Shown here piece after piece: positions 15,864-39,770 of a stretch of 49,826 nt of DNA (the stretch's first letter is position 1; every line of letters starts with the position of its first letter). This DNA comes from an uncultured Flavobacteriales bacterium (lineage in GTDB: Bacteria; Bacteroidota; Bacteroidia; Flavobacteriales_E; Vicingaceae): assembly GCA_913048175.1 (NCBI GenBank), contig CAJWVX010000006.1, positions 1 to 49,826 of the forward strand, in the 5' to 3' direction. The notes beneath the pieces were generated by a model. It was given only the letters and a program-made list of their open reading frames with translations. It did not search any database and was not told where the DNA came from. The position numbers and the translations under genes are program-made.

Positions 15864-15936
15864 GATCTGGTAGCTCAGTTGGTAGAGCATCTCCCTTTTA
15901 AGGAGAGGGTCCTGGGTTCGAGCCCCAGCCAGGTCA
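15864..15936 (+). tRNA. tRNA-Lys (anticodon TTT), copy 1
   Basis: GATCTGG...CCAGGTC acceptor stem, D-arm, anticodon arm CTCCCTTTTAAGGAG, T-arm CTGGGTTCGAGCCCCAG, discriminator A; CCA not encoded. Confidence 0.96.
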
Positions 15937-15938
15937 CT

Positions 15939-16053: not shown

Positions 16054-16126
16054 GATCTGGTAGCTCAGTTGGTAGAGCATCTCCCTTTTAAGGAGAGGGT
16101 CCTGGGTTCGAGCCCCAGCCAGGTCA
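16054..16126 (+). tRNA. tRNA-Lys (anticodon TTT), copy 2
   Basis: Identical 73-nt sequence to copy 1. Confidence 0.96.
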
Positions 16127-16128
16127 CT

Positions 16129-22020: not shown

Positions 22021-22072
22021 AATAGAATTCGTTTGTAGCTGGAAGCTACAAACAACAATTCTTAATTCTATT
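22021..22072. repeat. Large imperfect inverted repeat (hairpin) in an 840-bp intergenic region
   Basis: Inner perfect stem GTTTGTAGCT-GGA-AGCTACAAAC (22031-22053), flanked by AATAGAATT / AATTCTATT (22021-22029 / 22064-22072). Confidence 0.6.
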
Positions 22073-22484: not shown

Positions 22485-25400
22485 TTGAGTTTAAGCAAAT
22501 ACATATTATTCCTTTTAACCTTTTTAATTATTTTAAAAGGTAAAGCTCAAAACCATGATGTCTATTTAATTGGGAATTTAAAAGGCCCTAAAATGGAAAA
22601 ACGTTTACGCCACCTTTCCCAATCTATAAAACAACAAAGTAATGGAAAGGAATTCACTTTACTTCTTCTAGGTGATATCAGACAAAAAAATCTAATCAAA
22701 GAAGACTCACTCATCTCTTTTTTAAAAAAAATTGAACAAAAAAACGGAAAAATAATTGCAGTTACTGGTGATCGGGATTGGGACAAATCAAGTAACCATG
22801 GCTTAGATACTGTAGCTGCTTTAGAACATCGTTTTAACACCAAATTAGGGCATCATATATTTATCCCTTCAAAAGATTGTCCTGGCCCAACGATTAGAGA
22901 TATTGGAAATAATATTAGAATCATAGGAATTAACTCTCAATGGTGGTTACACCCATTCAGAAAAGCTTTACCTGTTGATTCTGATTGTAAAAACAGTACT
23001 AAAGTTCAAATTTTAGATGAGTTAAATGAAGCTATAGAGTCCGCAGCAGGAAGGCAAGTAATTATTATGACTCATCATCCAATCATTTCTGGAGGAGTTT
23101 ATGGAGGAGCTCTAAATATGATTGAGCATATTTTTCCTTTCAAGCATGATAAACCGAATAACAAAACTTTTTTGCCTTTTTATGGCTCATTTTATATGAA
23201 CTACCGAAGAAACATTGGTAGCACTCAAGATATGAGCAGCGAGGTCTATGACTCTTTTATTAAAGATATTGATGGCGTAGTACGAGATTATAAAAATATA
23301 ATAATTTGCTCGAGTCATGAGTATGATATGGAAGTATTAAAGACTAATAATAATTATCAAATTATTTCTGGAGCATTATTAAAAACTTCAAAAGTTAATA
23401 ATATTGAAAACACACTATACGCTTCAGATAAATTAGGTTATATTAAACTAGAAGTAGGAAAAGATAGTGTTTGGAGTAAAATTTTACTTTATGATAAACT
23501 GACAAACACTTATAATGTAAAGTCGAAATTTGTTTTAAATGATCACCTCCTAAAACAAAAGCAAAAAGAGATTACAATATTAAGTGATAATTCTAAAAAC
23601 AAAAAAGGAGACTTATTTTATGGTGGTAATTACAAAGCAAATTCACTAAAAAAAGTATTTTTCGGCAACTTATATAGAGATGCTTGGACTACCCCTATAG
23701 AAATTCCTACCCTTAATTTAGACACAATTTTTGGTGGCCTAACCCCATTAAAAGAAGGTGGCGGTTTACAAACTGTTTCTTTAAAATTTGTAGATAAATA
23801 CGGAAGAAAATATGCTTTCAGATCTATTAATAAAAACCCTATTAAATCTATTCCAATAGAATTTAGAATTGATTTAGTTGAGGGTATAACTCAAGATATG
23901 ACAGCAACACAGCATCCCTATGGAGCACTATTCGTTTCTAATTTATTAGATTCTACCAATTTGGAACACGAAAAAGCTAAACTCTTTGTAATGCCAGATG
24001 ATCCTAAATTAGGTATTTACCGAGAAAAGTTTGCAGGAATGTTTGGTATGTTAGAACAAAAACCAACCGAGCTTAAAGATTTGAAATACAGTTATGCCAA
24101 GGCTAATTCTGTAAAAGGTTCATTCAGTGTTTTTAAAAAGATTTATGATTCTCCAAAACATCGAATTGATACTGCTCTATTTGCTAAAGCAAGGATTTTT
24201 GACATCTTTATTGGAGATTGGGATAGACATGAAGATAATTGGAAATGGTTAGGTTATAAAAAAGATAGCACCTCTACCTCTTATAAAATTTATCCAAAAG
24301 ATAGGGATCATGCATTTTCAAGAATGGATGGTTTATTTTATTTTTTAGCTGATAGAGAATGGGGAATTCCTTTTCGAGAAAATTTTGATTATAAATTTAC
24401 TGGTCTTACCAGTTTAACTAATAAAGGAAACCATATGGATAGGATGTTACTATCTGGGTTAAGTAAAGAAAAATGGCTAAGCATTACAGACGAACTCATG
24501 TCAGAGATTACGGATGAAACAATTGATAGAGCCCAACTCTCTTTTCCTAAAGAAATACAAAATAAATCAGGCCAAATTATTGCTGAAAAACTAAAATCAA
24601 GAAGAAAAAAATTAAGCAAATTTATAGAAAAGTACTATTACTTAATCTCAAAAGAAGTTGACATTTTAGGTACTAATAAAAAAGAAATATTTGATGTTGA
24701 ACGTTTTATGGATGGAACAACAGTTGTAAAAGTTATTAGCAAAAAACGAAACAATGAAGTGCTTTATAAAAGAACTTTTAAATATTCTGAAACTAAAGAA
24801 ATTAGGCTGTTTGGGCTAGGCGGAGTAGATAGTTTTTATGTGCATGGCACAAGTTATAGAAACTCTTTAATTAGAATTATAGGAGGTTCAGAGCAAGATA
24901 TTGTATTGGACAAATCTTATGTTAAAGAAGGCTCTAAGAAGACTTTGGTTTATGATTATTTTAACGATGTAATTGTAACTTCAGAAAGAGAGACTAGAGT
25001 TGTATTTTCGGATGATAGTGAAATCAATGAATACGATCAAAAGTCTTATAAAAACAACATATATGTTCCTCTTCCTATATTTTTAACGAATCCTGATGAT
25101 GGAATTAGCGGAGGTTTTGCATTAAAACAAATAAGATACGGTTTTGGACATAAAAAGTACAAAAGCATTAGTAACTACAAAATGTTTTCATCAACTAATG
25201 GAGCAACACAAATAGAGTTAAACCACAAACAAAATATAGCAAGAAGTAATTGGTTTGCCACTGGGAATATAGACTTTGGTCAATCCTTTAGATTTTACCG
25301 GTTTTTTGGTGAAGGAAATACTACAACTTTCAATGATAGTATTAATGATGGAGGTTTTTATAAAACACGATACAAGGGTGCTATTCTTTCGGCAGGAGCC

Positions 25401-26090
25401 GAATTAGAGTTTCTAGAAAAAAGTCGATTCTCCATAAATGGTATAATAGAAGCTTTAGTTAAAAATCAATCAGATGAATCTTATTTTGACGCCTTTCCTG
25501 ACAAAAGCCTAGAAGCTAAAAATGCTGGAGGAGCAGCAATTAAGTTAGATATTGACTTTAGAGATAATCCAAGCTTCACTAATAGAGGAATGCGTCTTAC
25601 TATTAGTAACAAATCACTGATCTCTAGAGGGCAACTTTTTGGAAATATTAAAGGAGAACTAAGTTATTATGGAACTAGCAGTCTATTAATACCTATCACT
25701 TTAGGTGTTACTATTGGCAGTGTAAGAACTTTTGGTGATGAAATACCTTATTATCATTTGGCTAATTTGGGGCAATCAAACAATCTTAGAGGATATCTAC
25801 AAAACAGATTTTCAGGAAAAGGATCTAACTATTTAAATACTGATTTAAGATTCCATTTTGGAAAATTAAAATCTGACTTTTTACCGATATACTATGGTTT
25901 TTCACTTTTTAATGACATTGGTCAGATTTTAAATAAAAATCAGTTTATAGCTTCTAAATGGCATCATGGTTATGGAACCGGTATATATATTACACCAATA
26001 AATAAAGAATTTGTTACGCTACACATTAATGTTGAAAGGTCTAAAGAAAAATCGACCTTTTTAAAAATTAAGTTTGGAGTATTGTTATGA
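22485..26090 (+). CDS. Metallophosphoesterase-like, kinase-like central region and Omp85/BamA-like barrel fusion protein (copy 1)
   Basis: TTG start, signal peptide; MPE-like LLLGDIR, VTGDRDWD, MTHHPIISGGVYGG; central FDIFIGDWDRHEDNWKW...YPKDRDHAF; C-terminal barrel with IDFRDNPSFTNRGMRL and LRGYLQNRFSGKGSNYLNTDLR (Omp85 RGF-type motif). Confidence 0.8.
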   Translation: MSLSKYILFLLTFLIILKGKAQNHDVYLIGNLKGPKMEKRLRHLSQSIKQQSNGKEFTLLLLGDIRQKNLIKEDSLISFLKKIEQKNGKIIAVTGDRDWDKSSNHGLDTVAALEHRFNTKLGHHIFIPSKDCPGPTIRDIGNNIRIIGINSQWWLHPFRKALPVDSDCKNSTKVQILDELNEAIESAAGRQVIIMTHHPIISGGVYGGALNMIEHIFPFKHDKPNNKTFLPFYGSFYMNYRRNIGSTQDMSSEVYDSFIKDIDGVVRDYKNIIICSSHEYDMEVLKTNNNYQIISGALLKTSKVNNIENTLYASDKLGYIKLEVGKDSVWSKILLYDKLTNTYNVKSKFVLNDHLLKQKQKEITILSDNSKNKKGDLFYGGNYKANSLKKVFFGNLYRDAWTTPIEIPTLNLDTIFGGLTPLKEGGGLQTVSLKFVDKYGRKYAFRSINKNPIKSIPIEFRIDLVEGITQDMTATQHPYGALFVSNLLDSTNLEHEKAKLFVMPDDPKLGIYREKFAGMFGMLEQKPTELKDLKYSYAKANSVKGSFSVFKKIYDSPKHRIDTALFAKARIFDIFIGDWDRHEDNWKWLGYKKDSTSTSYKIYPKDRDHAFSRMDGLFYFLADREWGIPFRENFDYKFTGLTSLTNKGNHMDRMLLSGLSKEKWLSITDELMSEITDETIDRAQLSFPKEIQNKSGQIIAEKLKSRRKKLSKFIEKYYYLISKEVDILGTNKKEIFDVERFMDGTTVVKVISKKRNNEVLYKRTFKYSETKEIRLFGLGGVDSFYVHGTSYRNSLIRIIGGSEQDIVLDKSYVKEGSKKTLVYDYFNDVIVTSERETRVVFSDDSEINEYDQKSYKNNIYVPLPIFLTNPDDGISGGFALKQIRYGFGHKKYKSISNYKMFSSTNGATQIELNHKQNIARSNWFATGNIDFGQSFRFYRFFGEGNTTTFNDSINDGGFYKTRYKGAILSAGAELEFLEKSRFSINGIIEALVKNQSDESYFDAFPDKSLEAKNAGGAAIKLDIDFRDNPSFTNRGMRLTISNKSLISRGQLFGNIKGELSYYGTSSLLIPITLGVTIGSVRTFGDEIPYYHLANLGQSNNLRGYLQNRFSGKGSNYLNTDLRFHFGKLKSDFLPIYYGFSLFNDIGQILNKNQFIASKWHHGYGTGIYITPINKEFVTLHINVERSKEKSTFLKIKFGVLL

Positions 26091-29000
26091 GGAATTTAAT
26101 CACTTTGTTTACCATACTGTTATTACAACTCAACGCAAAGGCTTTAAATAGGGACAGCATTAATTATAGAATTTTTAATATTGGAAATATTGTTGATGTT
26201 AAAAATAAACCTGATTTTGCTCATTCTTTAAAGGGTTTAATTTCCTCATCTTCAGAACCTGCTCTTTTAATCCTGAATGGTGATCTTATAAAAAAAAATA
26301 AGTCTAATTATTTAGGGTATGATTCTTTAAATATATTCAACATGCTTAAGGTTTTTTCTACAATCTCAAATTGTAAAACAATGGTTATTCCTGGGGATAG
26401 GGATTGGAATAATTCAGGAAAACATGGCCTTGAAAAAGTAAATAAATTAGAAACGCTTATTGAGCATAAAAGTTTAGAAAATGTTAAATGGGTATTAGAC
26501 AATGGATGCCCTGGACCAATTCTCATCGAGTTAGACAGTAATCTTTTATTTATGGCAATTAATACACAATGGTGGAATCATCCTCATGATAAACCTACAT
26601 CAGTTGATGGACTTTGTAAAATTAACACAAAAAAAGATTTTATCATCGAATTTGAAAATGCTTTATCTGAATCAGAAGATAAGAACTTAATAATTGCCGG
26701 GCACTTTCCGCTAGTCATTCAAAGAAAACCTTCTTTAAAAGATTTTATTCTTCCACTTCCAATTCTCGGGAGTTTTACGGCTTCCTTTCATCAAAATATT
26801 GGTGGCCATAAAGATATAGTTAATGACTTATTTAACTCTATTCGAAAAAAACTATTAAAAAAAATATCTTTAAAACAGGGGGTAATTTACCTTTCAGGTC
26901 ATAATTATAATACTCAAATAATTAAGGACGAAAAAAACTATTTCATCAACAATGGATTACCAAATAAATCTAAAAATAATAGAGGAATAAATACAGCCTT
27001 ATACTCCTCTAACTCTCCTGAAATTATTGAGGTCGTCTATTATTCTAATGGTAAAATTTCGAGTAATATATATTCCTTTATTAATTCCAAATTTCAACTA
27101 AAAAAAGAAGTGCCTTTATATCGTTCTATACATGATTCTAATCAAAAAAAATCTATAAAAAACGGAAACAATCTAACACCTTTCAATTACTCTAACAAGT
27201 GTTGCTTATCTGATGTTTCAAATATTATTGCTAATAAAAGTGATACTTCACTCTTTACTTCTGCAGGAAATTATAATGCAAGATTTATTAAAAAGCTCTT
27301 TATAGGCAATCATTACCGAACTAGCTGGAATGCTATAATTGAAGCCCCTATCCTTAATATGGATACTACAAAAGGTGGTTTAAAGGCCTATAATATAGGC
27401 GAAGGACACCAAACAACTTCAGTAAAAATGTATGGAAAAGATGGTTATGCCTATACTTTTAGATCAGTAAATAAAGATGCTACAAGGGGATTAGGAGGTG
27501 ATCTTATCAAATCATTAATAGCAAGACAATTACAAGATAACGTTTCGATGCAACATCCTTATGGAGGGCTTATTGTAAGTAAATTACTAGATAACACTTC
27601 AATTTTACATGCTCAACCTAAACTTTACATGTTACCTAAAAGTGATAACTTAGGTAGTTTTGTTGAGTATGAAGGACTTTTGGGCATTTTAGAAGATCAT
27701 CCAAAAAATCCAAAAAAAGTCAACAAAACATTTGCTAATGCTGATAAAATTTTACGAGGCCATCAGCTAAACAAAAAGCTTTATGAAAACTACAATCATA
27801 AAGTTGATGCTAAAGAGTACACTAAAGCCAGAGTCTTTGATATCCTAGTTAATGATTTTGGTAAACATGAAGACAATTGGAAATGGGCCGGTTACAAATC
27901 TGATACAGGAACAATTTATCGTCCTATACCCCGAGATAGAGATCTAGTTTTCACTAAAAGAGATGGTATACTTCCTTGGATAGCAGATAGAGAATGGATG
28001 TTAGAGTCAGGAGAAAATTTTGGTTATAAAATAATTGATATTAAAAGCTTAATGTGGGCAGCCCGTCATCCTGATCGTTTCTTAACTAATGAAATGGACA
28101 AACAAGATTGGTTAGATGCAAGTAACTACATTAAACATCAAATTACCGATAGTGTAATTCATACTTCTATCCTTGCATTACCCAAGGAAATACAATCTCT
28201 TTCTGGCTCTACAATAGAGGCTAAACTAAATACACGAATTAAAGAGTTAGATAGGTATACACTTCAATATTATATGCTTCTTGCAAAACAGGTGGATGTT
28301 ACGGGGTCAAACAAACCAGAGTATTTTGATATACTAAGAAATAAAGATAATTCTGTAGATGTATCTATATTTAATATAAAGAAAAATTCTATTAGTCTAA
28401 AAGGAGATAAACTAATTTATCACAGAAAATTTAATCTAGATGAAACAAAAGAAATTCGGATTTATGGTCTAGGATCTATTGATGTTTTTAACATTTCTGG
28501 AAGTGCTAAAAAATCAATTAAACTTATTATTATCGGTGGAGATGGAGCTGACATTATTGCTGACTACTCTAAAGTTAATGGAATAAATAAACTCAGCAAA
28601 ATTTATGAAAATAATTTAAATAGTCAGATCAATTTAGGCACTGAAGCAAGGATGGTAAAAACCTGGAATGCCGATTTATACGATTTCCAACCTTCTATTT
28701 TTGAGTACAACAGATATACACCTATAGCATCTGCTAGTTACAGTGTAGATAATGGTTATAAGCTAGGAGGTGGAGTTCAATTTACCAAGAAAGAAAAATT
28801 CGGAAATATAGATTTTTCTGCTAAACATAGATTTTTATTAGAAGCTTCAACACAACAGAACAATATATTTCATCATTACAGTAGATACCACAATATGTTT
28901 AGAAAATGGGATCTTGAGTTTGGAACATTTTTAGCCAATCATAATAATTTAACTAACTTTTTTGGTATGGGCAATAACACCGAAAAGAATGAGAATTTAG

Positions 29001-29767
29001 TAAAGATGAACTATTACAAAACAACTTACAATACTTATTCATTTAATATAGGAGTTATCCGATTTTTTTGGAAAAAAAGTAGCTTTTCTATTAATAGCAA
29101 ACTTGAGCACAACACTTCACAAATTGGAAAAAATTCTTTAGTAAAGAGCCAAAATACTCTTGACAATAATTTCATCTCAGGAACTACTCGTAATAATATA
29201 TTAATCTCATCAGCCAATTTAGAAATAGACTTTAGAGACAAAAAAGATCTTCCTGAAAAAGGAATAAAAAGTAGTATAAGCTATAAAAATGGTCTATTTA
29301 CAACAGAAAAGAATAATTCCTATCATATATTAACTGGAAATTTAGAACATTTATTTACCGTATACATACCTTCTCCAGTAACTTTAGGATTAAAGTCTGG
29401 TGGATCAGTTAGTAGTGGTAAAATTCCTTTTTACAAACTCAACTATTTAGGAAACAACAGTCATTTAAGAGGTTTTAGTAATAATAGGTTTACTGGAAAA
29501 TCTACACTTTTCGTAAATACCGAATTAAGAATTCAACTTAAAAATTTTACAACTACTTTTATACCAATTAAGGTAGGTTTTAAGGCATTCTTTGATAGCG
29601 GAAGAGTTTATTCTAGCTTTGATAAATCAGGGTTATGGCATAACGGATATGGAGCTGGAATTTATAGTGTTTTTTTAGATGAGCGATATACTGCAAACTT
29701 ATCTTTCGCATATTCTAAAGAGGAGAATAACTTAATTATATTTAGTTTAGGGAAATCTTTTAATTAG
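26087..29767 (+). CDS. Metallophosphoesterase-like, kinase-like central region and Omp85/BamA-like barrel fusion protein (copy 2)
   Basis: ATGA overlap with copy 1; homologous full length: IPGDRDWNNS, INTQWWNHP, FDILVNDFGKHEDNWKW...IPRDRDLVF, IDFRDKKDLPEKGIKS, LRGFSNNRFTGKSTLFVNTELR. Confidence 0.8.
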   Translation: MRNLITLFTILLLQLNAKALNRDSINYRIFNIGNIVDVKNKPDFAHSLKGLISSSSEPALLILNGDLIKKNKSNYLGYDSLNIFNMLKVFSTISNCKTMVIPGDRDWNNSGKHGLEKVNKLETLIEHKSLENVKWVLDNGCPGPILIELDSNLLFMAINTQWWNHPHDKPTSVDGLCKINTKKDFIIEFENALSESEDKNLIIAGHFPLVIQRKPSLKDFILPLPILGSFTASFHQNIGGHKDIVNDLFNSIRKKLLKKISLKQGVIYLSGHNYNTQIIKDEKNYFINNGLPNKSKNNRGINTALYSSNSPEIIEVVYYSNGKISSNIYSFINSKFQLKKEVPLYRSIHDSNQKKSIKNGNNLTPFNYSNKCCLSDVSNIIANKSDTSLFTSAGNYNARFIKKLFIGNHYRTSWNAIIEAPILNMDTTKGGLKAYNIGEGHQTTSVKMYGKDGYAYTFRSVNKDATRGLGGDLIKSLIARQLQDNVSMQHPYGGLIVSKLLDNTSILHAQPKLYMLPKSDNLGSFVEYEGLLGILEDHPKNPKKVNKTFANADKILRGHQLNKKLYENYNHKVDAKEYTKARVFDILVNDFGKHEDNWKWAGYKSDTGTIYRPIPRDRDLVFTKRDGILPWIADREWMLESGENFGYKIIDIKSLMWAARHPDRFLTNEMDKQDWLDASNYIKHQITDSVIHTSILALPKEIQSLSGSTIEAKLNTRIKELDRYTLQYYMLLAKQVDVTGSNKPEYFDILRNKDNSVDVSIFNIKKNSISLKGDKLIYHRKFNLDETKEIRIYGLGSIDVFNISGSAKKSIKLIIIGGDGADIIADYSKVNGINKLSKIYENNLNSQINLGTEARMVKTWNADLYDFQPSIFEYNRYTPIASASYSVDNGYKLGGGVQFTKKEKFGNIDFSAKHRFLLEASTQQNNIFHHYSRYHNMFRKWDLEFGTFLANHNNLTNFFGMGNNTEKNENLVKMNYYKTTYNTYSFNIGVIRFFWKKSSFSINSKLEHNTSQIGKNSLVKSQNTLDNNFISGTTRNNILISSANLEIDFRDKKDLPEKGIKSSISYKNGLFTTEKNNSYHILTGNLEHLFTVYIPSPVTLGLKSGGSVSSGKIPFYKLNYLGNNSHLRGFSNNRFTGKSTLFVNTELRIQLKNFTTTFIPIKVGFKAFFDSGRVYSSFDKSGLWHNGYGAGIYSVFLDERYTANLSFAYSKEENNLIIFSLGKSFN

Positions 29768-29800: not shown

Positions 29801-30673
29801 GTGTTTATTCTACCTAAATATCTTTCCACTATTCTTGCTTTAGGATTCTGTTTGAACTTAATCGCTCAGAAATCTATCCATAAAAAGGATTGTGAGCGCT
29901 GTATACATGGAAAACATTCTAGTGAGAGTCCTTATACTGTTAATCTTAAATCTGAACTACCCTATATAGCTGCAAGTGCTGGATTATTAGGTTCAGGATT
30001 ACTAGTTAAGTCTATAAATGAAGAGAAACCTTTTACACTTGAAGAATTAAATAATTTAGATCTAAGTAAAATAAATAAATTTGATAGAGGTGCAGTTTTC
30101 AATAATTCATCTAGTGCAAGAGCATACAGTGATTACGCTTTAATGACAGGAGCATTATTACCACTTTATTTTTTATCCAACCACAATACACGATCTGATT
30201 TTATTCCGCTAATAATTATGGGTGCTGAAGTCTATGCAATTACAAGCACGTTAGCTTTAAATTCTAAATTTGCTTTTAACCGATCACGACCTTTGGCTTA
30301 TAACCCTGAATTTTCAGATAAATTCCGCATGGGTAAAACAAGCAAACTTTCTTTCTTTTCTGGACACACCGCTCAAACTGCTGGGTTTTCCTTTTTTATG
30401 GCAAAAGTTATTTCAGATTACCATCCCAATATGGCCACAGGTCAGAAAATCGGATTATGGTCTTTTGCAGTTTCACTTCCAGCTGTAACAGGGTATTTAA
30501 GAGTGAAAGGTGGTAAACACTTTAATACAGATGTTATTACGGGCTATGCTATTGGAGCTTTTCTTGGTTGGGCTATTCCACATTTGCATAAGAAAAAAGA
30601 AAGCAAACTTTCTATTGCTCCTTTTAACTATCAAAATTCTAGCGGACTTAGCTTTACGTTTAGATTAGACTGA
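29801..30673 (+). CDS. PAP2-family phosphatase
   Basis: GTG start; KFAFNRSRPLAY, SFFSGHTAQTAGFSFF, GYLRVKGGKHFNTDVITGYAIGAFLGW. Confidence 0.88.
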   Translation: MFILPKYLSTILALGFCLNLIAQKSIHKKDCERCIHGKHSSESPYTVNLKSELPYIAASAGLLGSGLLVKSINEEKPFTLEELNNLDLSKINKFDRGAVFNNSSSARAYSDYALMTGALLPLYFLSNHNTRSDFIPLIIMGAEVYAITSTLALNSKFAFNRSRPLAYNPEFSDKFRMGKTSKLSFFSGHTAQTAGFSFFMAKVISDYHPNMATGQKIGLWSFAVSLPAVTGYLRVKGGKHFNTDVITGYAIGAFLGWAIPHLHKKKESKLSIAPFNYQNSSGLSFTFRLD

Positions 30674-32686
30674 TTTTTGGTCTTCTAAAAAATGGTGGAA
30701 ATCAAACTGAGCTCTAACCTTATTTTTAGCTGTTGATTTTTTGTAAGGATTACTTTGTGTTTTATTTAAACTTCGAGCCTTAACATTATCTTTTAATTGC
30801 AAATTAATTAAGGTCTTAATCTCATTACTTAAACTTTTTTCTAAAATTGGAAAACCAACCTCAACTCTTCTACTCAAATTTCTTGTCATCCAGTCTGCTG
30901 AAGCTAAATACAGTTTTTCATCACCATTATTATTAAACCAATAAATTCTACCATGCTCTAAATAACGATCAACAATACTAATCACTTTAATATTTTTACT
31001 CATATCTTCCACTCCTGGAATCAGGCAGCAAATGCCTCTTACAATAATTGTAATTTTAACACCAGCATTGCTTGCTTCATATAATTTAAGGATCATTTGT
31101 TTATCCTGAAGACTGTTCATCTTTAAAGTCATCTTACCTACTCTACCAGCTTTTACATGAGCTATTTCATTATCAATTAAAGATTCAAATTGATTACGCA
31201 TATTAAAAGGTGCCACCAATAAATGTTTAAATGTGGGCGTTTTAATATTTCCTTTTAAAAATTCAAATACCTTATTTAACTCATTGGTAAGATCTGTATT
31301 CTTTGTAAGCAAAGCATGATCACAGTAGATTTTAGCTGTAGCTTCATTAAAATTACCTGTTCCAAAATAAGCGTAATCAACTAAATCTTTACCTTCTCTA
31401 CGTTTAATCAAACATATTTTAGAATGCACCTTAATTTCATCAAAACTGTATAAAACATCAATACCAGCAGCTTTCATTTTTTCTCCCCAATGCATATTTA
31501 GTTCCTCATCAAACCGAGCTTTCACTTCATTAAATACAGTAACCTTTTTACCCAATTCTTTTGCTTTGATTAAGGCTTTACAAACACGAGATTCTTCTGC
31601 TACTCGATATAAAGTAATATTGATTTCTTCCACCAAACTATCAGTAGCAGCTTCTTCAACAAACTCTAATACATGATTATAATTTTGGTAAGGAAAATGT
31701 AATACTACATCCTCTTTAGCAATCGTTTCAAGATAATTTTTACCCTCTAATTTTGGATGATTAATTGAATCGAAGTTCTCATAAACCATGCTTGAACCAG
31801 CCTTTACTGGCAAACCAAAAAAGTCGTTAAAATTATGGTATCGTCCTCCAGGGATAACTTCATTTTTCTTAACACCAAACTTCTTTCTAAAACCCTTCAA
31901 CAATGGTTTTGGCATTCTTTCATCATATAAGAAACGAGAAGGACTCCCTATATCTCTTTTATGAAGACTTGAACTTATTCTTTCCTCTATTGTTTCTGCA
32001 ATTTCTTCTTCTAAATAAAGCTCAGCATCTCTTGTTAGTTTAAGTGCATAGCATTCTGAACTAACAGGTTCTCCTACTAATTCAGTTAAATAAAGCCTAA
32101 GTACATCAGACAATTGAATAATAACTTGTTCTGACTCTTTACTCGGTAAAACGATAAATCGCTTCGTTTTATCCGTTGGAATATTCACTAAGAACTGATT
32201 CTTTAAATCACTCTCTATGGCTAGGTACAATCCCTTATTCTTAAGAAACTCTGTAGTATTCTCTGGTAATTTTTTAACTACTAATAATGATTCTACTTCT
32301 TTCTTAAAGTAAGCATCTAGATATTCTTTTTGCTCAACATTAATTTTTGTTTGGTCAATTAAATAAATTCCTTCTTTTTTTAATAAAGGAATTAATTCTT
32401 CTCTAAAAATTCTTCCAAATTCATCTTGTTGTTTATGAACTGTTTTTTTTATCTTCTTTAACAGCTTTTTAACGTTAACATCAGGCTCTAAACCTTGATC
32501 CTTTTGCATGGATAACACATGAATATAGGAGGCTACTCTAACTCTATAAAACTCATCTAAATTAGATGAATAAATAGCTAGGAACCTTAACCTCTCAATT
32601 AAAGGAACTTCTACATTAATTGCCTCTTGTAATACTCTATAATTAAAAGATAACCAGCTTAATTCTCTATCAAAATACTTTTTCAT
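30665..32686 (-). CDS. ppk1: Polyphosphate kinase 1
   Basis: MKKYFDRELSWLSFNYRVLQEA, LRFLAIYSSNLDEFYRVRVA, VHSKICLIKRREG...YFGTGNFNEATAKIYCDHALLT. Confidence 0.95.
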   Translation of the reverse strand: MKKYFDRELSWLSFNYRVLQEAINVEVPLIERLRFLAIYSSNLDEFYRVRVASYIHVLSMQKDQGLEPDVNVKKLLKKIKKTVHKQQDEFGRIFREELIPLLKKEGIYLIDQTKINVEQKEYLDAYFKKEVESLLVVKKLPENTTEFLKNKGLYLAIESDLKNQFLVNIPTDKTKRFIVLPSKESEQVIIQLSDVLRLYLTELVGEPVSSECYALKLTRDAELYLEEEIAETIEERISSSLHKRDIGSPSRFLYDERMPKPLLKGFRKKFGVKKNEVIPGGRYHNFNDFFGLPVKAGSSMVYENFDSINHPKLEGKNYLETIAKEDVVLHFPYQNYNHVLEFVEEAATDSLVEEINITLYRVAEESRVCKALIKAKELGKKVTVFNEVKARFDEELNMHWGEKMKAAGIDVLYSFDEIKVHSKICLIKRREGKDLVDYAYFGTGNFNEATAKIYCDHALLTKNTDLTNELNKVFEFLKGNIKTPTFKHLLVAPFNMRNQFESLIDNEIAHVKAGRVGKMTLKMNSLQDKQMILKLYEASNAGVKITIIVRGICCLIPGVEDMSKNIKVISIVDRYLEHGRIYWFNNNGDEKLYLASADWMTRNLSRRVEVGFPILEKSLSNEIKTLINLQLKDNVKARSLNKTQSNPYKKSTAKNKVRAQFDFHHFLEDQKSV

Positions 32687-32788: not shown

Positions 32789-33882
32789 TTGGATTCAAAT
32801 AACTCCTTAAAAAAGTCACTATTACTAATCCCAGACATAAGTGGATTTACAAAGTTTATAAATGAAACTGAAATTGTTCACGGGGTTCATATTATATCAG
32901 AGCTTTTAGAAATAATTATCAAAGAAAATACGATGGGACTTAAATTAGCCGAAATTGAAGGTGATGCTGTTTTGTTTTATAAGTACACAGAAAAACCAAC
33001 TCTAAAGGAGCTTTATGAACAGTGTAAAGACATGTTTCTTGCCTTCCATCAGCATATTAAATTATATGAAAGAGATCGTATTTGTGATTGTGGCTCCTGT
33101 TCTGGAACTCCAGATTTAACTTTAAAATTCATTATGGAGATGTTATAGAAAGGAATATTTTAGGGCATTTTCAATTAATGGGAGCCGATGTAACTACTGC
33201 TCATAAATTAATGAAGAATAATGTAGATAATGATGAATACCTCCTAATCTCAGAAAATTCTATCTTAAAAAATGACATGAGCAAAGTTCCTTCTTGGTTT
33301 AAACTACAAGCAAGTAGCATGAACTATGAGAATGTTGGAAAGATCAATTATCACTATGAGAAATTCACAGAACTACTGAATGAAATTCCAGAATTACCTC
33401 CAAGAAAAAAATTAATGGACGAACCCGTTCAATTTACAATTAGTTACTCTATGCCACATTCATTAGAATCTACATTTAAATTATTGAGTAGTCTAGAAAG
33501 AAAGCATGAATGGATTGAAGGTGCTAAGAAAATTAATTTTGATGAAATCAAAATTGAAAGAATAAGAACAACTCATGAATGTATTACTCCTTTAAATAAA
33601 TTACACATTGAAACTACTATTATTGATAAAAAAGGGAGTAATAAAATTTTTGGATAAGAAGCTGATGCAGTAGGTATTTTTCCTGCAGCAAACCAACTTT
33701 ATAGTTTAACAAAAATAGGAGATAATGAATGTAAAATACAACTAGAGGTACGTTTTAAATCGAGTTTATTCAATAATCTGATTTTTAAGAACCTATTTAA
33801 ATCAGGGCTTACAAAGTCTTTAAGAAAACTAGAACTGATATTAACTCATGATAGATCTAAACCGGAACATTTGATTGATTAG
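32789..33882 (+). pseudogene. DUF2652 (nucleotidyl-cyclase-like) family protein, disrupted by a frameshift and an in-frame stop
   Basis: SLLLIPDISGFTKFINETEIVHGVHIISELLE...LAEIEGDAVLFYKY in frame 1. A -1 shift at the A-run 33124-33127 (IHYGDVIERNILGHFQLMGADVTTAHKLMKN) and an in-frame TAA at 33655-33657 follow; the reading frame resumes (EADAVGIFPAANQLYSL...) to TAG 33880-33882. Confidence 0.75.
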
Positions 33883-35080
33883 ACATCATCATAAATACTC
33901 CGAAGAGAACTACTGAGACAATCATTCCATACATAAAAACAATATAACAGATTCTAAGGTAATTGTATTTTCTAGCTAATACAACACCAAGGAAATAAAG
34001 ATCTCGAATTAATGAACTGTAAAGATATTCTTTGTCTTTCATTATTTCTTTCATTCCCCATTCGTAATCTTTCAATTCCATTTTATGAAAATTTCCAAAA
34101 AACAACAAATTAGCTTTTCTATTTTTTACATCTTCGGTAGAAAATTTACCTGCAAGAATTTTTGGTTTAGTAGAAAGCGTAGCTAAGACTATAGTAATTA
34201 AACACACTACTAGCATAAATACACTTGGAATCATTAACTCAGGATGCTTATCAAACTTTGAAAATAATGTGGATATTATTATCGATAATATAAGCGCATT
34301 AATACTCAACATTATATTCGCCTTATTATCTGCTATTGCACTCAACTCCATATGGTTTTTAAGTGCTGTTCTAAACATTGTTTCAATTCCCTTTTCAGGA
34401 ACTTCAGCTTTTTGAGTCTTTAATTTTAATTCTTTTTCCTTTAATTGGTTTTTCTTATCAGCACCTTTATCTTTAGTCTTAAGCTTCTTTAATTCGTCAT
34501 GTTTTCCAATTAAATTACTAATCTTTTGCTGATTGTATTTTAAAAAAGCCGTTTTAGTGTTGTATTGATGTCCACTTAAAAAGGCAATTTCTTGTTCTAA
34601 CCATTCAACATCACTGTCTACTTTACCAATACAACAGCCCCATTCTACTCTTAAAAGTTTAGAACGATCTTCATAAAATTTAGAGCCTAAACCATACATA
34701 TCTGCATCACATAGAATCTCTTCTAAAATAGAATTAGGTTCAACTCCCATTTCGGTAGCAGCAATACAGATTTCAATCTGCTTTATTTTATCTTTAGAAT
34801 AGTTGTTTTGAATTAGAAATTCCTTAGCAACTTCTATACTTTTTTCCTCATGTTTTTTAAGAGTGGTTAAATATCCCACATCATGAAAGTAAGCTGCTAG
34901 TAAAACAACTTCCTTATCTTCTTTAGACAATTTTTCTCCATCACAAATTAAATCTGCAGACTCTACAACATCATGTGTATGTCTATAATCATGAAAGGCT
35001 AATTTAGTTGTATCAGATTTTTTGAATAAATCAAAAACAAAATCTTCTGATAATTTTAATATATCTTTTGAATTACTCAT
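33857..35080 (-). CDS. HD-domain protein with C-terminal DUF5706 (Pycsar effector PycTM-like) membrane domain
   Basis: HD motifs FHDYRHTHDVV...AAYFHDVGY...HEEKS...CDADMYGLG; C-term FRTALKNHMELSAIADNKANIMLSINALILSIIISTLF, further TM segments. Confidence 0.85.
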   Translation of the reverse strand: MSNSKDILKLSEDFVFDLFKKSDTTKLAFHDYRHTHDVVESADLICDGEKLSKEDKEVVLLAAYFHDVGYLTTLKKHEEKSIEVAKEFLIQNNYSKDKIKQIEICIAATEMGVEPNSILEEILCDADMYGLGSKFYEDRSKLLRVEWGCCIGKVDSDVEWLEQEIAFLSGHQYNTKTAFLKYNQQKISNLIGKHDELKKLKTKDKGADKKNQLKEKELKLKTQKAEVPEKGIETMFRTALKNHMELSAIADNKANIMLSINALILSIIISTLFSKFDKHPELMIPSVFMLVVCLITIVLATLSTKPKILAGKFSTEDVKNRKANLLFFGNFHKMELKDYEWGMKEIMKDKEYLYSSLIRDLYFLGVVLARKYNYLRICYIVFMYGMIVSVVLFGVFMMMSNQSNVPV

Positions 35081-35091
35081 TCTCTTATAAA

Positions 35092-37473
35092 TTATGACTG
35101 AATCTCTTTTATTAACTCATCCATTGCTTTAGCAGATTGTTTCTCATGATCATCTTGATAGATTATTTTAACTCTCAACGCTTTTAATCCAGAAACACCT
35201 TGTAAATCTTCCAATTCTAATTCTTCAATCTTCCCAAAGATATGCTTTGATTGTAGAAATTTCAAATATTTTCTATATTCTACTGCTTCCCTCTCCTGAG
35301 AATAAACAATAGAGAGCTTTCCTGGAACTGTAATTCGCTGATCTGTACACTTTATATGAGCTTTATCTATTCTTTTCTTAATAATAGCATACCGAATATT
35401 GTAAGCTCCATCCACATCAAATTGCTTCTCATCCATTCTAAATCGAATTGCCAATGGATTACTATGTACTAGTATCATTGAAGCAATTTCCAATTTATAA
35501 TCCATATTAGTTAATGCTAATCGAGCCACATTCTCCATATCATACATCATTTGCAATTGCCATAAACGTATATTATCTAAGTATAACTTATCATATATTT
35601 TATTCTTAACCAATGATTGACCTATGTAAATATTGTGCTCTATTCCATCTGTTTTGTAACGTTCAAAATAATGTGGAAACATATTTTGAGCTTCTTCCTG
35701 ACCATTATCAATAAATTTAGCCAACTGATCATTTAAAAAAGTTACACTTGTTTCATATGATTTCCTTTTTTCATAAACTACTTGCAATTCAGGATCAAGT
35801 CGATCCATATAGGTCTTAATCTGATCAGACAATTGATTATTGATAGCTTCAATATGAGTAAATGTTGGGTAAATATCTTTTTTAAGAAATTCTAAAACAC
35901 CAACTTCATCTCCAGCCTTTAAACCGTTTTTAACGCTAGTAAAAAACTCATTTACTCTAAATATAAGTTCCTCATATATTGGTAGCTTTTCTATTTTTAA
36001 AGCCTCCAATAAAACATTTTTAGCCAAATTAAGTTGAGTTAATAAATCCTCCTTTATAGTCTCATTTCTTGCAACAGATGATCCTTTAATATCTGCTTGT
36101 CCAAAAAGTGGTTGAACATTTTCAAATACTATTTCCTCTAGCTTAACTCGTTCTGATTTCTCTTCAGTTTGATTGATAAACTTACTAGCTGCATCAGTAA
36201 ACTTCCATTTTACAGTAGGATGTATTGCTGTATAATGCTCTTGAATAGATGCCTCTATAGTATTCTCCATTTCTTTTGATGCACGTTCAACAGCATATTG
36301 AAACATTGGAATAATATCGCTCAACTTTTGCAAGTTAATAGAATTTAATTCAAAAGCTCTTGGAGATGCAATTTCTAAAACAGCCAAATCAGAATTTCCA
36401 CTTGCTTGGATCGGTATTAAAATGATACTTTGAATGCCTTTTTCAAGCAGCCGTTTAGAAAAAGGAACATTGTTAGATAACTCAGCATATTTATTAACAT
36501 CAGAAATTGCTACTGACTTTATCTCATCAAATACATTTCCTAAAAGACCTTTGCAATAAAAATAACTATTTTCAACTTCTTCTTTATCCTCAAAAATGAT
36601 ACTCGCAGTTTTCTTTATTTTTGCATTATCAGTGTTACCTTCAGATATATCAAATATCGTAAAGCCTAATGATAGATCATCTATATCATAAAACTTTCTA
36701 ATACTCTGCTGAAGTTCTTCAATCATTTTATCTTCGTCTCCTTTTAATAAGTTGGTTCTTATTTCCGAGATAGATTCATCTGCTGTAACATCAAATAAAT
36801 TCATTATTCCAAAACCTTTAAAAAGGTAACTTCCTTGAGGAAATTTCTCTCTCCATACATCTAAATTATCAAAACTATTAATCAGTAACTTAAAGTCTTC
36901 ATCAGTTATTTCTGGGGCACTATCAGTCTTTTCAATACTTGCCATGTCAGCATTAAAAGCAACACGATAGTTTAATTCATTACCTTTTTTATTCGGTATA
37001 TTAAAATAAAATGGTCTTTTAAGATCAACAAACTTACCGTAAACAACTCCCAAAATCATTATGCATGCATGAACGTAAATTAACTCCTCTTCTCTTTCAG
37101 ATATTGACAACTCAAAATCCACACCAGCATCTTTAATAATATTTCCAAATCTTTCTGAGTATCTAAATTGATTAAAACTAAAAGGTACAGATGCCGCTTT
37201 TATCTCATTCAAAGATAGTGCTTCAGGAAACAAAGGATCAACCATCAAATTAACCACATCTTTATGCTTATCTAACCAGTTCAAATCCTCAATACCATCT
37301 ATTAATTTAGGGTATTTCTTTACTGCTGCAACCATCTTTGTTGCTAAAGAATGATTTACATGATCCGTATATTTTACTGATGCATATTTACTGTATATAT
37401 TATAAATTTTATCAAAACTGATTTTAAATTTTAATGGTAAACCGGAATGTAGTCTGTTTTTATTGGCCAACAT
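35092..37473 (-). CDS. 793-aa cytosolic protein with probable GAF-like domain
   Basis: CKGLLGNVFDEIKSVAISDVNKYAEL...KGIQSIILIPIQASGNSDLAVLEIASPRAFELNSINLQKLSDIIPMFQYAVERA looks GAF-like; no TM. Ends just upstream of the HD-DUF5706 gene on the same strand. Confidence 0.65.
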   Translation of the reverse strand: MLANKNRLHSGLPLKFKISFDKIYNIYSKYASVKYTDHVNHSLATKMVAAVKKYPKLIDGIEDLNWLDKHKDVVNLMVDPLFPEALSLNEIKAASVPFSFNQFRYSERFGNIIKDAGVDFELSISEREEELIYVHACIMILGVVYGKFVDLKRPFYFNIPNKKGNELNYRVAFNADMASIEKTDSAPEITDEDFKLLINSFDNLDVWREKFPQGSYLFKGFGIMNLFDVTADESISEIRTNLLKGDEDKMIEELQQSIRKFYDIDDLSLGFTIFDISEGNTDNAKIKKTASIIFEDKEEVENSYFYCKGLLGNVFDEIKSVAISDVNKYAELSNNVPFSKRLLEKGIQSIILIPIQASGNSDLAVLEIASPRAFELNSINLQKLSDIIPMFQYAVERASKEMENTIEASIQEHYTAIHPTVKWKFTDAASKFINQTEEKSERVKLEEIVFENVQPLFGQADIKGSSVARNETIKEDLLTQLNLAKNVLLEALKIEKLPIYEELIFRVNEFFTSVKNGLKAGDEVGVLEFLKKDIYPTFTHIEAINNQLSDQIKTYMDRLDPELQVVYEKRKSYETSVTFLNDQLAKFIDNGQEEAQNMFPHYFERYKTDGIEHNIYIGQSLVKNKIYDKLYLDNIRLWQLQMMYDMENVARLALTNMDYKLEIASMILVHSNPLAIRFRMDEKQFDVDGAYNIRYAIIKKRIDKAHIKCTDQRITVPGKLSIVYSQEREAVEYRKYLKFLQSKHIFGKIEELELEDLQGVSGLKALRVKIIYQDDHEKQSAKAMDELIKEIQS

Positions 37474-37572: not shown

Positions 37573-38679
37573 ATGATAATCACTCCTCAACAAAAAATTA
37601 ATCTAAGGATTATCCTAACTATTATGTTAACTTGGACTATTGTTGGAGTATTTATAGTGTTTTATAATAACACCCTATTAAATACACCATACCTAAGTAT
37701 AGGGCCATCAAAAATCTATAAGCTAAATGTTCAACTATTAATATGGTCTTTTATCAGTGCTTTAGGTGGTTTAATAGCTGGTTCTTTTTTAGTTTATACT
37801 AATAGCAAAGTTTTTAGAAAAAAATCATTTATATATGCACTAATTACCACCCTCTATTCTTATGTGATTTTATTTATTTTTTTAATGTCTGCCTATTTAA
37901 CAATCCGATCATATTCGGCACTTGGAGAGAATGCTAACTTAAAAAGTGTTTTAACATTAGCATTAAGTATGGCTCAAAACATCTACCCTTTTGTACAATT
38001 TATATTGTGGGGTGGAATAACATTACTTACTCTTTTCATGTTACAAATGAACGATAAATTTGGTCCTGGGATTTTAAAAAAATTTTTATTAGGCCAATAT
38101 TATCATCCTAAAAAAGAAGATAGAGTCTTTATGTTTTTAGACATGAAATCCTCTACAACAATTGCAGAAAGAATTGGAAATGAAAAATACTTCAATCTAC
38201 TTAGTAATCTATTTTCAGACTTAACTGATACTATTTTAAATAATGAAGGTGAAATTTACCAATATGTTGGTGATGAAATTGTTATCTCTTGGCCAACGAA
38301 AAGTGCAATTAAAAATGCAAATTGTATAAATTGCTATTTTGATATTAAAAACAAGCTAATAGAATTAAGCTCTTATTACCAGAGTAAATATCAAACAATC
38401 CCTAGCTTTAAAGCTGGTTTGCATTGTGGAATAGTAATGGCTGGAGAAGTTGGTGTTATTAAAAAAGACATTATTTATTCGGGAGATGTTTTAAATACAA
38501 CTTCAAGAATACAAGCTAAATGCAACGAGTTTAAAACAGATTTGCTCATTTCTCAACACATCTTACAGAGGTTCGAATCTAAAGATCTTACCTCTTTTAA
38601 AACAGAGAAAATAGGAAGCATAGCTCTTAGAGGAAAAAAAGAAGAAATTATAATCAATAGTATAGCTTATTTAAGCTAA
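37573..38679 (+). CDS. Membrane class III adenylate/guanylate cyclase
   Basis: N-terminal hydrophobic segments; RVFMFLDMKSSTTIAERIGNEKYFNLL, GEIYQYVGDEIVISW, KAGLHCGIVMAGEVGVIKKDIIYSGDVLNTTSRIQ. Confidence 0.92.
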   Translation: MIITPQQKINLRIILTIMLTWTIVGVFIVFYNNTLLNTPYLSIGPSKIYKLNVQLLIWSFISALGGLIAGSFLVYTNSKVFRKKSFIYALITTLYSYVILFIFLMSAYLTIRSYSALGENANLKSVLTLALSMAQNIYPFVQFILWGGITLLTLFMLQMNDKFGPGILKKFLLGQYYHPKKEDRVFMFLDMKSSTTIAERIGNEKYFNLLSNLFSDLTDTILNNEGEIYQYVGDEIVISWPTKSAIKNANCINCYFDIKNKLIELSSYYQSKYQTIPSFKAGLHCGIVMAGEVGVIKKDIIYSGDVLNTTSRIQAKCNEFKTDLLISQHILQRFESKDLTSFKTEKIGSIALRGKKEEIIINSIAYLS

Positions 38680-39636: not shown

Positions 39637-39770
39637 AAATTCTAATTTCTACATCAACATTCAAAAGCTATGCCAAAAAATAAATTTTATTTTAGTTTGT
39701 TGATTTTCAATAATTAACTTGTCTTTTATTAATGCATTATTAAGTAGTTTTGATATATAAAATTTCAATT

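Follow-up and report, generated by a model that had tools for sequence, protein, structure and literature searches.

We describe two adjacent genes in a 49,826-nucleotide stretch of DNA from an uncultured Flavobacteriales bacterium (contig CAJWVX010000006.1; the whole stretch is hereafter called the window). They encode homologous proteins of about 1200 amino acids (aa), p1 and p2, whose central region is, judging from structure models, near certain to fold like atypical kinases of the HipA/CotH/FAM20 type. In p1, a signal peptide is followed by a phosphoesterase fold, the kinase fold, a beta linker, and an Omp85 barrel. We consider it rather probable that such proteins are outer-membrane-anchored, periplasmic phosphotransferases/phosphatases tied to an envelope phosphate or polyphosphate pathway.

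An earlier note on this DNA, made from the sequence alone, had described p1 and p2 as adjacent, homologous from end to end, and coupled by ATGA. Both open reading frames (ORFs) are indeed present, the stop codon of p1 and the start codon of p2 overlap in ATGA (sequence TTATGAGG), and the alignment of the two proteins is of near full length (query 14-1195, 34% identity, 563 bits, E 2.7e-169). The motifs quoted in that note for the central regions were located in both proteins at or very near where it had placed them. No third copy was found across the genome, in which p1 and p2 are the only two. A recent duplication was rejected as the origin of the tandem, since the two proteins fall into separate subclades, p1 beside L032 and p2 beside sequences from Zobellia and a member of the Cytophagales, and are only 34% identical.

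The kinase-like region of p1, together with the beta linker (aa 375-866), was modeled by AlphaFold 2 (AF2) from an alignment of 86 sequences. The predicted local distance difference test score (pLDDT) of the model is 92.0 and its predicted template modeling score (pTM) is 0.92. When this model was compared with the PDB by Foldseek, the best 20 of 624 matches were all bacterial kinases of the CtkA, HipA, and HipT types (best E 4.4e-5, probability 0.99-1.00), and the lower ranks included PI4K, mTOR, and, at rank 29, Fam20C. The model thus shows the two-lobed architecture of the protein-kinase-like (PKL) fold.

Profile comparison points to CotH kinases. Using hhalign, the family profile scored 40.5 across 167 columns against a profile of Bacteroidia CotH proteins, compared with a maximum of 22.7 among 60 column-shuffles and 15.8 with a reversed profile. 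The two split halves of the family alignment scored 38.4 and 41.3 and, as a yardstick, CotH scored 35.1 against HipA. The similarity spans the catalytic loop, the metal motif, and the C-lobe up to its LKxRRxxL end. In this alignment, D580 (GDWD580RH) falls on the Asp of NxDxY and D606 falls on the first Asp of WDxD/N, positions that we take to be D228 and D251 of CotH. The D228Q and D251A variants of Bacillus subtilis CotH are catalytically inactive (PMC7821199). A kinship to HipA at the profile level was rejected, because the score of 20.6 is not above that of shuffled controls, though the local alignment hit the right motif; kinship to HipA is therefore a matter of fold only. Pfam CotH (PF08757) is not listed at E <= 1 for 18 members or for the window copy, nor is it among the 25 families listed for the 86 members. 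Likewise, no Pfam kinase model, HipA_C (PF07804) included, is listed for any of the 86, and single-sequence and profile searches of the PDB found no relatives of the kinase-like region. The resemblance to HipA/FAM20/CotH-type atypical kinases that had been proposed for the central region is supported by the AF2 model, by the CtkA/HipA/HipT matches, and by the CotH profile.

Conservation was counted over the 86 aligned relatives, using p1 numbering. Twelve residues are identical in every one of them, so that chance can hardly account for the motifs: R446, K450, P478, E524, D578, H582, W586, W588, P604, D606, D608, and G616. The candidate alpha-C acidic residue, D471, is Asp in 82 sequences and Glu in 2. 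By alignment with CotH, K450 would serve as the beta3 Lys, D578/D580 would provide the catalytic Asp, and D606/D608 would be the metal-binding Asp residues, and p1 keeps them all. In p2, Gly (DFGKH) replaces the Asp of DRH, and the equivalent of D578 is kept. The earlier note had read a catalytic-loop-like motif (DWDRH) and a DRD motif; p1 has both, and p2 has DRD, its loop being NDFGKHEDNW. Two equivalent active kinases are therefore not to be assumed. On the tree, Gly at the D580 position needs three changes, at least two of which are forced by supported branches. The sequences suggest either that D578 can perform catalysis in Gly-type members or that these forms serve another role.

Some relatives have diverged further. 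L018 and L019, two remote kinase-barrel proteins of ~860 aa that have no phosphatase domain, keep the fold region and the barrel but no longer have DRH, the lysine of RSxxK, or a glycine-rich loop. At L205 and L206, kinase-fold genes stand alone, several of them in divergent or tandem sets of two or three. Some of these read DWSRREDQW, where Ser stands at the position of the catalytic Asp and Arg at that of the otherwise invariant His; by their sequences they are likely pseudokinases beside intact ones.

The domains of p1 and p2 are combined in various ways among relatives. Among the ORFs examined, with a few loci represented twice, the fused phosphatase-kinase-beta-barrel form accounts for 80, the kinase-beta-barrel form for 18, and the kinase-beta form for 4; the phosphatase alone is also found. 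At L208, kinase-beta, phosphatase, and barrel are three adjacent genes on one strand, and at L080 the gene order is phosphatase, kinase-barrel, and the polyphosphate kinase PPK1. As judged by eye, stand-alone kinases of ~400-545 aa have a signal peptide, a lipobox-like Cys, or a membrane segment at the N-terminus. The kinase-like domain is an independent exported unit. The family is present in 72 of 198 sampled Bacteroidota genomes (about a third), and it also occurs in Ignavibacteriota, Chlorobiota, Gemmatimonadota, and Rhodothermota.

To model mature p1, AF2 was given 57 full-length relatives (pLDDT 84.8, pTM 0.73). Foldseek comparison of this model with the PDB revealed a purple-acid-phosphatase fold at the N-terminus, closest to GAP50 (E 4.3e-8, TMt 0.60). 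The domain is below detection by Pfam in either copy, and stand-alone relatives of it do match PF00149. Thus, the fold and these relatives bear out the calcineurin-like phosphoesterase that had been recognized at the N-terminus. A working phosphoesterase in both window copies does not follow, as part of the metal-ligand set is gone in each. The seven-ligand set of purple acid phosphatases (D-D-Y/N-H-D/H/H-H) is intact in 13 of 13 stand-alone relatives and in 40 of 80 fused entries, two of these 40 being without only the Tyr; p2 is present twice in this tally, one locus holding a contig-truncated second copy. The ligand positions read NDQ-DRD-H-HY in p1 and ND--DRD-H-HY in p2, both degenerate. 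In each of the 22 Gly-type fused entries the phosphatase is degenerate, and none of the intact ones is Gly-type. Moreover, every scored phosphatase is degenerate in the clade of 26 members (support 100/99) that includes p1 and p2. Judged by ligand residues, degeneracy is a trait of the p1/p2 branch and not of the whole family. Given the degenerate ligands of both copies and the Gly of p2, activity of the window copies is unproven. For intact members, a polyphosphatase role is plausible because TRAP, a mammalian (human) phosphatase of the same fold, degrades polyphosphate (PMC3817253).

The C-terminal barrel of p2 is recognized by Pfam (PF01103, E 1e-9), and that of p1 by its fold, which is closest to TamA, Sam50, and BamA in the PDB (best E 2e-9). 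Both copies also have sub-threshold NCBIfam Omp85 matches, and the barrel is the only part of p1 or p2 that Pfam and NCBIfam detect. POTRA domains were sought by Pfam and none was found in p1 or p2; a single match among the 86 members is at chance level. At least one such domain is typical of the Omp85 superfamily, though not universal in it. An Omp85 barrel without evident POTRA domains, as had been noted, is therefore confirmed. Export signals (a signal peptide, a lipobox-like Cys, or an N-terminal membrane segment) are present on the forms that were inspected by eye. Omp85 barrels place N-terminal domains in the periplasm. In PlpD, a patatin-Omp85 protein that is the nearest studied enzyme-Omp85 fusion, the enzyme was long thought to be displayed but proved to lie exclusively in the periplasm, and PlpD forms a homodimer (PMC11116518). 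Because of this precedent and the general topology of Omp85 proteins, the phosphatase- and kinase-like domains are expected inside the outer membrane, and by analogy most likely face the periplasm rather than the cell surface. The earlier note had envisaged a secreted phospho-transfer module tethered to a surface barrel; an exported kinase-fold domain on an Omp85 barrel stands, and the surface location does not.

Genes that flank the family point to phosphate metabolism. Neighbors were counted in the window and in 80 loci retrieved by similarity. Those that recur are PPK1 (29 loci), an HD phosphohydrolase with a fused PycTM membrane domain (HD-PycTM; 35), a PAP2-family phosphatase (12), and a SixA-like phosphatase (9). 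At 23 loci, a same-strand gene directly or almost directly upstream encodes an SdiA-regulated/phytase-like lipoprotein, and at 12 loci, from Hymenobacter, PPX/GppA lies <=1.6 kb downstream on the same strand. The PPK1 gene in the window is the sole copy in its genome and is located ~0.9 kb from p2. PycTM is the membrane domain of Pycsar effectors. Because HD-PycTM stands beside the kinase-barrel family at 35 loci, it may belong to phosphate signaling rather than to defense.

To avoid selection, distances to PPK1 were scored only in genomes found by protein or profile search, with coordinates measured by hand. Of 73 genomes that carry both the family and PPK1, 27 have the two no more than 15 kb apart, one of these 27 (G103) being counted via a contig-broken fragment, versus 0 of 31 genomes that carry PPK1 and only a stand-alone phosphatase, many of which are fragmented drafts (Fisher p 1.1e-5). 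When counted by taxonomic family, the figures are 9 of 20 versus 0 of 13 controls (p 0.004). The chance expectation is ~0.75% per genome. The possibility that PPK1 linkage follows the phosphatase was rejected, since no stand-alone phosphatase in the 31 genomes is near PPK1; the link thus follows the kinase-barrel part. PPK1 is also a neighbor of kinase-barrel forms that have no phosphatase (L054, L090, L093, L104, L105, L209, and L210). Because the order and strand of neighbors vary between groups, a kept functional link is indicated rather than frozen synteny alone.

We propose that the Omp85-type barrel would act as an anchor for a CotH/HipA-like kinase-fold domain and an N-terminal purple-acid-phosphatase-like domain. 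The kinase-fold domain may phosphorylate or nucleotidylate an acceptor in the envelope, and the phosphatase domain, where intact, may strip phosphate from the same pool. With all of its kinase-motif residues kept, p1 would be the likely enzyme, and p2 would be an enzyme in altered form or else a pseudokinase that partners p1. We place the system in polyphosphate/phosphate handling because PPK1, PPX/GppA, PAP2, SixA-like, HD-PycTM, and phytase-like neighbors exceed chance by far.

A number of findings weigh against this proposal. Against known kinases, the kinase-like model reaches moderate TM-scores (TMt 0.55, TMq 0.35), partly because the query carries ~130 residues of beta linker, and phosphotransfer by this domain is predicted from fold and motifs. 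The D580 position is Asp in 64 of the 86 aligned sequences and Gly, a form without the presumed catalytic Asp, in 22. Phosphatase ligands are lost in 40 of the 80 fused entries, p1 and p2 among them, and the clade-wide loss read from the sequences counts against these two being a working kinase-phosphatase couple. Of the 73 genomes, 46 show no linkage to PPK1, and among the 27 that do, 15 come from one taxonomic family with a uniform spacing of ~11-14 kb. Finally, the periplasm is generally regarded as free of ATP. We speculate that polyphosphate as donor would solve this last problem: PPK1 makes polyphosphate, and a CotH-like kinase fed by it, with a polyphosphatase partner, would phosphorylate envelope proteins, lipids, or glycans. 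We regard this specific version as improbable.

Other explanations must be weighed against the proposed anchored phosphotransferase/phosphatase. It is possible, though we tend to doubt it, that the family is a phosphate-scavenging machine in which the barrel protein, the phytase-like lipoprotein, PAP2, and the phosphatase act outside the inner membrane to free phosphate from polyphosphate or organic phosphate, PPK1 stores it, and the kinase-like part is substrate-binding or regulatory. This would account for neighbors that are phosphate-releasing proteins plus PPK1/PPX, and for purple-acid-phosphatase ligands that are intact in half of the fused family. However, stand-alone phosphatases lack a nearby PPK1 in 31 of 31 genomes, and PPK1 adjoins kinase-barrel forms that have no phosphatase. 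Slightly more doubtful is a pseudo-enzyme scaffold whose phosphatase and kinase folds carry out no chemistry and instead serve in binding or assembly, either by sensing nucleotide, polyphosphate, or phospholipid or by taking the place of POTRA domains. Consistent with such a scaffold, neither window copy has intact phosphatase ligands, p2 is without the DRH Asp, the phosphatase is degenerate in all 22 Gly-type fused entries, further kinase residues are gone in L018 and L019, and the top phosphatase fold match, GAP50, is a phosphatase-fold protein that serves as an anchor. However, scaffolding alone leaves unexplained why K450, E524, D578, H582, D606, and D608 are present in 86 of 86 sequences. 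Moreover, 40 fused members have phosphatase ligands, and of these 39 have D580 by motif search and L011 has DRH in the alignment.

The barrel itself suggests a further role, in outer-membrane protein (OMP) assembly or translocation in the manner of BamA or TamA, with the enzyme-like domains as periplasmic substrate-binding arms. Its fold is nearest to TamA, Sam50, and BamA, its LRG..RF motif is conserved, and such a role agrees with assembly/translocation as the default hypothesis for non-POTRA Omp85 subfamilies put forward by Heinz and Lithgow (2014, PMC4104836). However, there is no POTRA domain, the kinase and phosphatase parts occur as free exported proteins and as separate genes, and the neighbors are phosphate enzymes rather than OMP-assembly genes, all of which makes this role unlikely. 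A central region that plugs the barrel or forms some unrelated scaffold is hardly credible, and this reading was rejected at the level of the models. Its only support is the lack of a Pfam or PDB match at the sequence level, and it conflicts with the confident independent fold and its kinase matches, with the CotH profile match, and with the separate exported forms that have no barrel, because of which the kinase-like domain cannot simply be a plug.

PF00149 is a phosphoesterase family, not a metalloprotease. In a 2014 survey (Heinz and Lithgow, PMC4104836), PF00149 fused to an Omp85 barrel defines a 'Metallo' subfamily that is read as a metalloprotease, and a 2024 paper keeps that name for the fusion. 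The likeness to p1 and p2 lies in a PF00149-type domain N-terminal to a POTRA-less barrel, which in the window copies is recognized by fold and not by Pfam. The survey also describes an expanded Omp85 diversity in Bacteroidetes/Chlorobi. On the basis of architecture, it is very likely that the p1/p2 family and the 'Metallo' Omp85 proteins are the same. The portion of the survey open to us mentions no kinase domain, split forms, or gene neighbors (PMC4104836). No earlier report of the kinase domain or of the PPK1 association was found in the open-access literature, most subscription papers being outside this scope. Thus, the phosphatase-Omp85 fusion was already described in 2014, the kinase fold is new so far as the open-access literature shows, and the family is a new branch of a known fold within a partly known architecture.

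Known systems differ from this family in several respects. Compared with CotH (PF08757), the kinase-like domain has DxDRH with an invariant His and two Trp in place of NxDxY, its D580 is not universal, and in p1 and p2 it is fused to a barrel and a phosphatase. HipA, CtkA, and HipT (PF07804) provide the best fold matches and share a DxH..N-type loop. HipA-type kinases are cytoplasmic toxin-antitoxin kinases, whereas the p1/p2 family is exported. FAM20C likewise has a secretory-pathway kinase fold and a DRH motif, but it is eukaryotic, is a weaker Foldseek match, and has no barrel. Purple acid phosphatase/TRAP and GAP50 share the phosphatase fold, and intact family members share the seven-ligand set; the window copies, unlike them, have lost ligands and are fused to a kinase fold and a barrel. 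In PlpD, too, an Omp85 barrel keeps an enzyme domain in the periplasm, but the enzymes are different, PlpD has POTRA, and its loss alters membrane lipid composition (PMC11116518).

These findings bear on a large group of outer-membrane proteins filed as 'metalloprotease Omp85', as hypothetical, or as Omp85 only, about a third of each of which is a kinase fold unseen by Pfam; plasmid records, for example, annotate family genes as hypothetical proteins. If active, such proteins would hold a kinase and a phosphatase on one outer-membrane anchor, which raises the question of how a kinase operates in an ATP-free compartment. The pairing with PPK1 offers both a candidate donor, polyphosphate, and a genetic handle. 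More broadly, the family points to unexplored phosphate chemistry at the bacterial outer membrane.

Table 1. Coordinates of p1, p2, their domains and motifs, and recurrent neighbors in the window.
Feature	Position	Strand	Basis
p1 (copy 1), 1201 aa, TTG start	22485..26090	+	ORF list; domain calls from AF2 models and Foldseek
p1 signal peptide, predicted Sec, aa 1-22, MSLSKYILFLLTFLIILKGKAQ	22485..22550	+	Sequence inspection by eye
p1 purple-acid-phosphatase-like domain, aa ~23-340	22551..23504	+	Foldseek GAP50 match; ligand table
p1 kinase-like domain, aa 375-735 (~360 aa)	23607..24689	+	AF2, Foldseek, hhalign vs CotH
p1 glycine-rich segment and RSxxK; K450, beta3-Lys candidate	23754..23834	+	K450, R446 in 86/86
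p1 EGGGLQTVSLKF	23754-23789	+	Motif search
p1 YAFRSINK	23811-23834	+	Motif search
p1 GMLEQKP	24045-24065	+	Motif search
p1 catalytic-loop motif FDIFIGDWDRHEDNW; D578, H582 invariant, D580 at CotH catalytic Asp position	24198..24242	+	Conservation, CotH alignment
p1 metal motif YPKDRDHAF; D606, D608 invariant	24291..24317	+	Conservation, CotH alignment
p1 beta-rich linker, aa 736-862, RTX-like GGxGxD repeats	24690..25070	+	DSSP of AF2 model; weak RTX/serralysin Pfam matches in single members
p1 Omp85 barrel, aa 863-1201, NLRG..RF motif	25071..26087	+	Foldseek TamA/BamA/Sam50 E 2e-9; NCBIfam NF047779 sub-threshold
p2 (copy 2), 1226 aa, ATG start, same domain order as p1	26087..29767	+	ORF list, alignment to p1
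p2 kinase-like domain; loop NDFGKHEDNW, IPRDRD kept	27248..28342	+	Conservation, motif positions
p2 counterparts of p1 motifs	27398-27475, 27683-27703, 27836-27880, 27926-27952
p2 Omp85 barrel	28937..29659	+	Pfam PF01103
PAP2-family phosphatase, directly downstream of p2, recurrent family neighbor	29801..30673	+	Pfam; neighbor counts
PPK1 polyphosphate kinase, recurrent family neighbor	30665..32686	-	Pfam; genome search
HD phosphohydrolase fused to PycTM membrane domain, recurrent neighbor (35 loci)	33857..35080	-	Pfam; neighbor counts

Several further features of the window were observed. Upstream of p1, an AT-rich gap of ~840 bp separates this gene from a divergent TonB receptor gene and contains a perfect 9-bp inverted repeat (TTTGTAGCT-GGA-AGCTACAAA, 22032-22052), possibly a terminator or operator. 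Two overlapping ORFs in different frames (32789-33148 and 33088-33657, +) match positions 1-81 and 78-118 of the DUF2652 profile, and from these sequences are probably one frameshifted gene or a sequencing error. Near the HD-PycTM gene are a gene for a 793-aa protein without a Pfam match (35092-37473, -) and an adenylate/guanylate cyclase gene (37573-38679, +). Because a subtilase encoded at 39750-42380 (+) carries a type IX secretion C-terminal sorting domain (Por_Secre_tail), the organism probably has this secretion route. Two tRNA-Lys(TTT) genes with equal Rfam scores are located at 15864-15937 and 16054-16127 (+), with ~116 bases between them.

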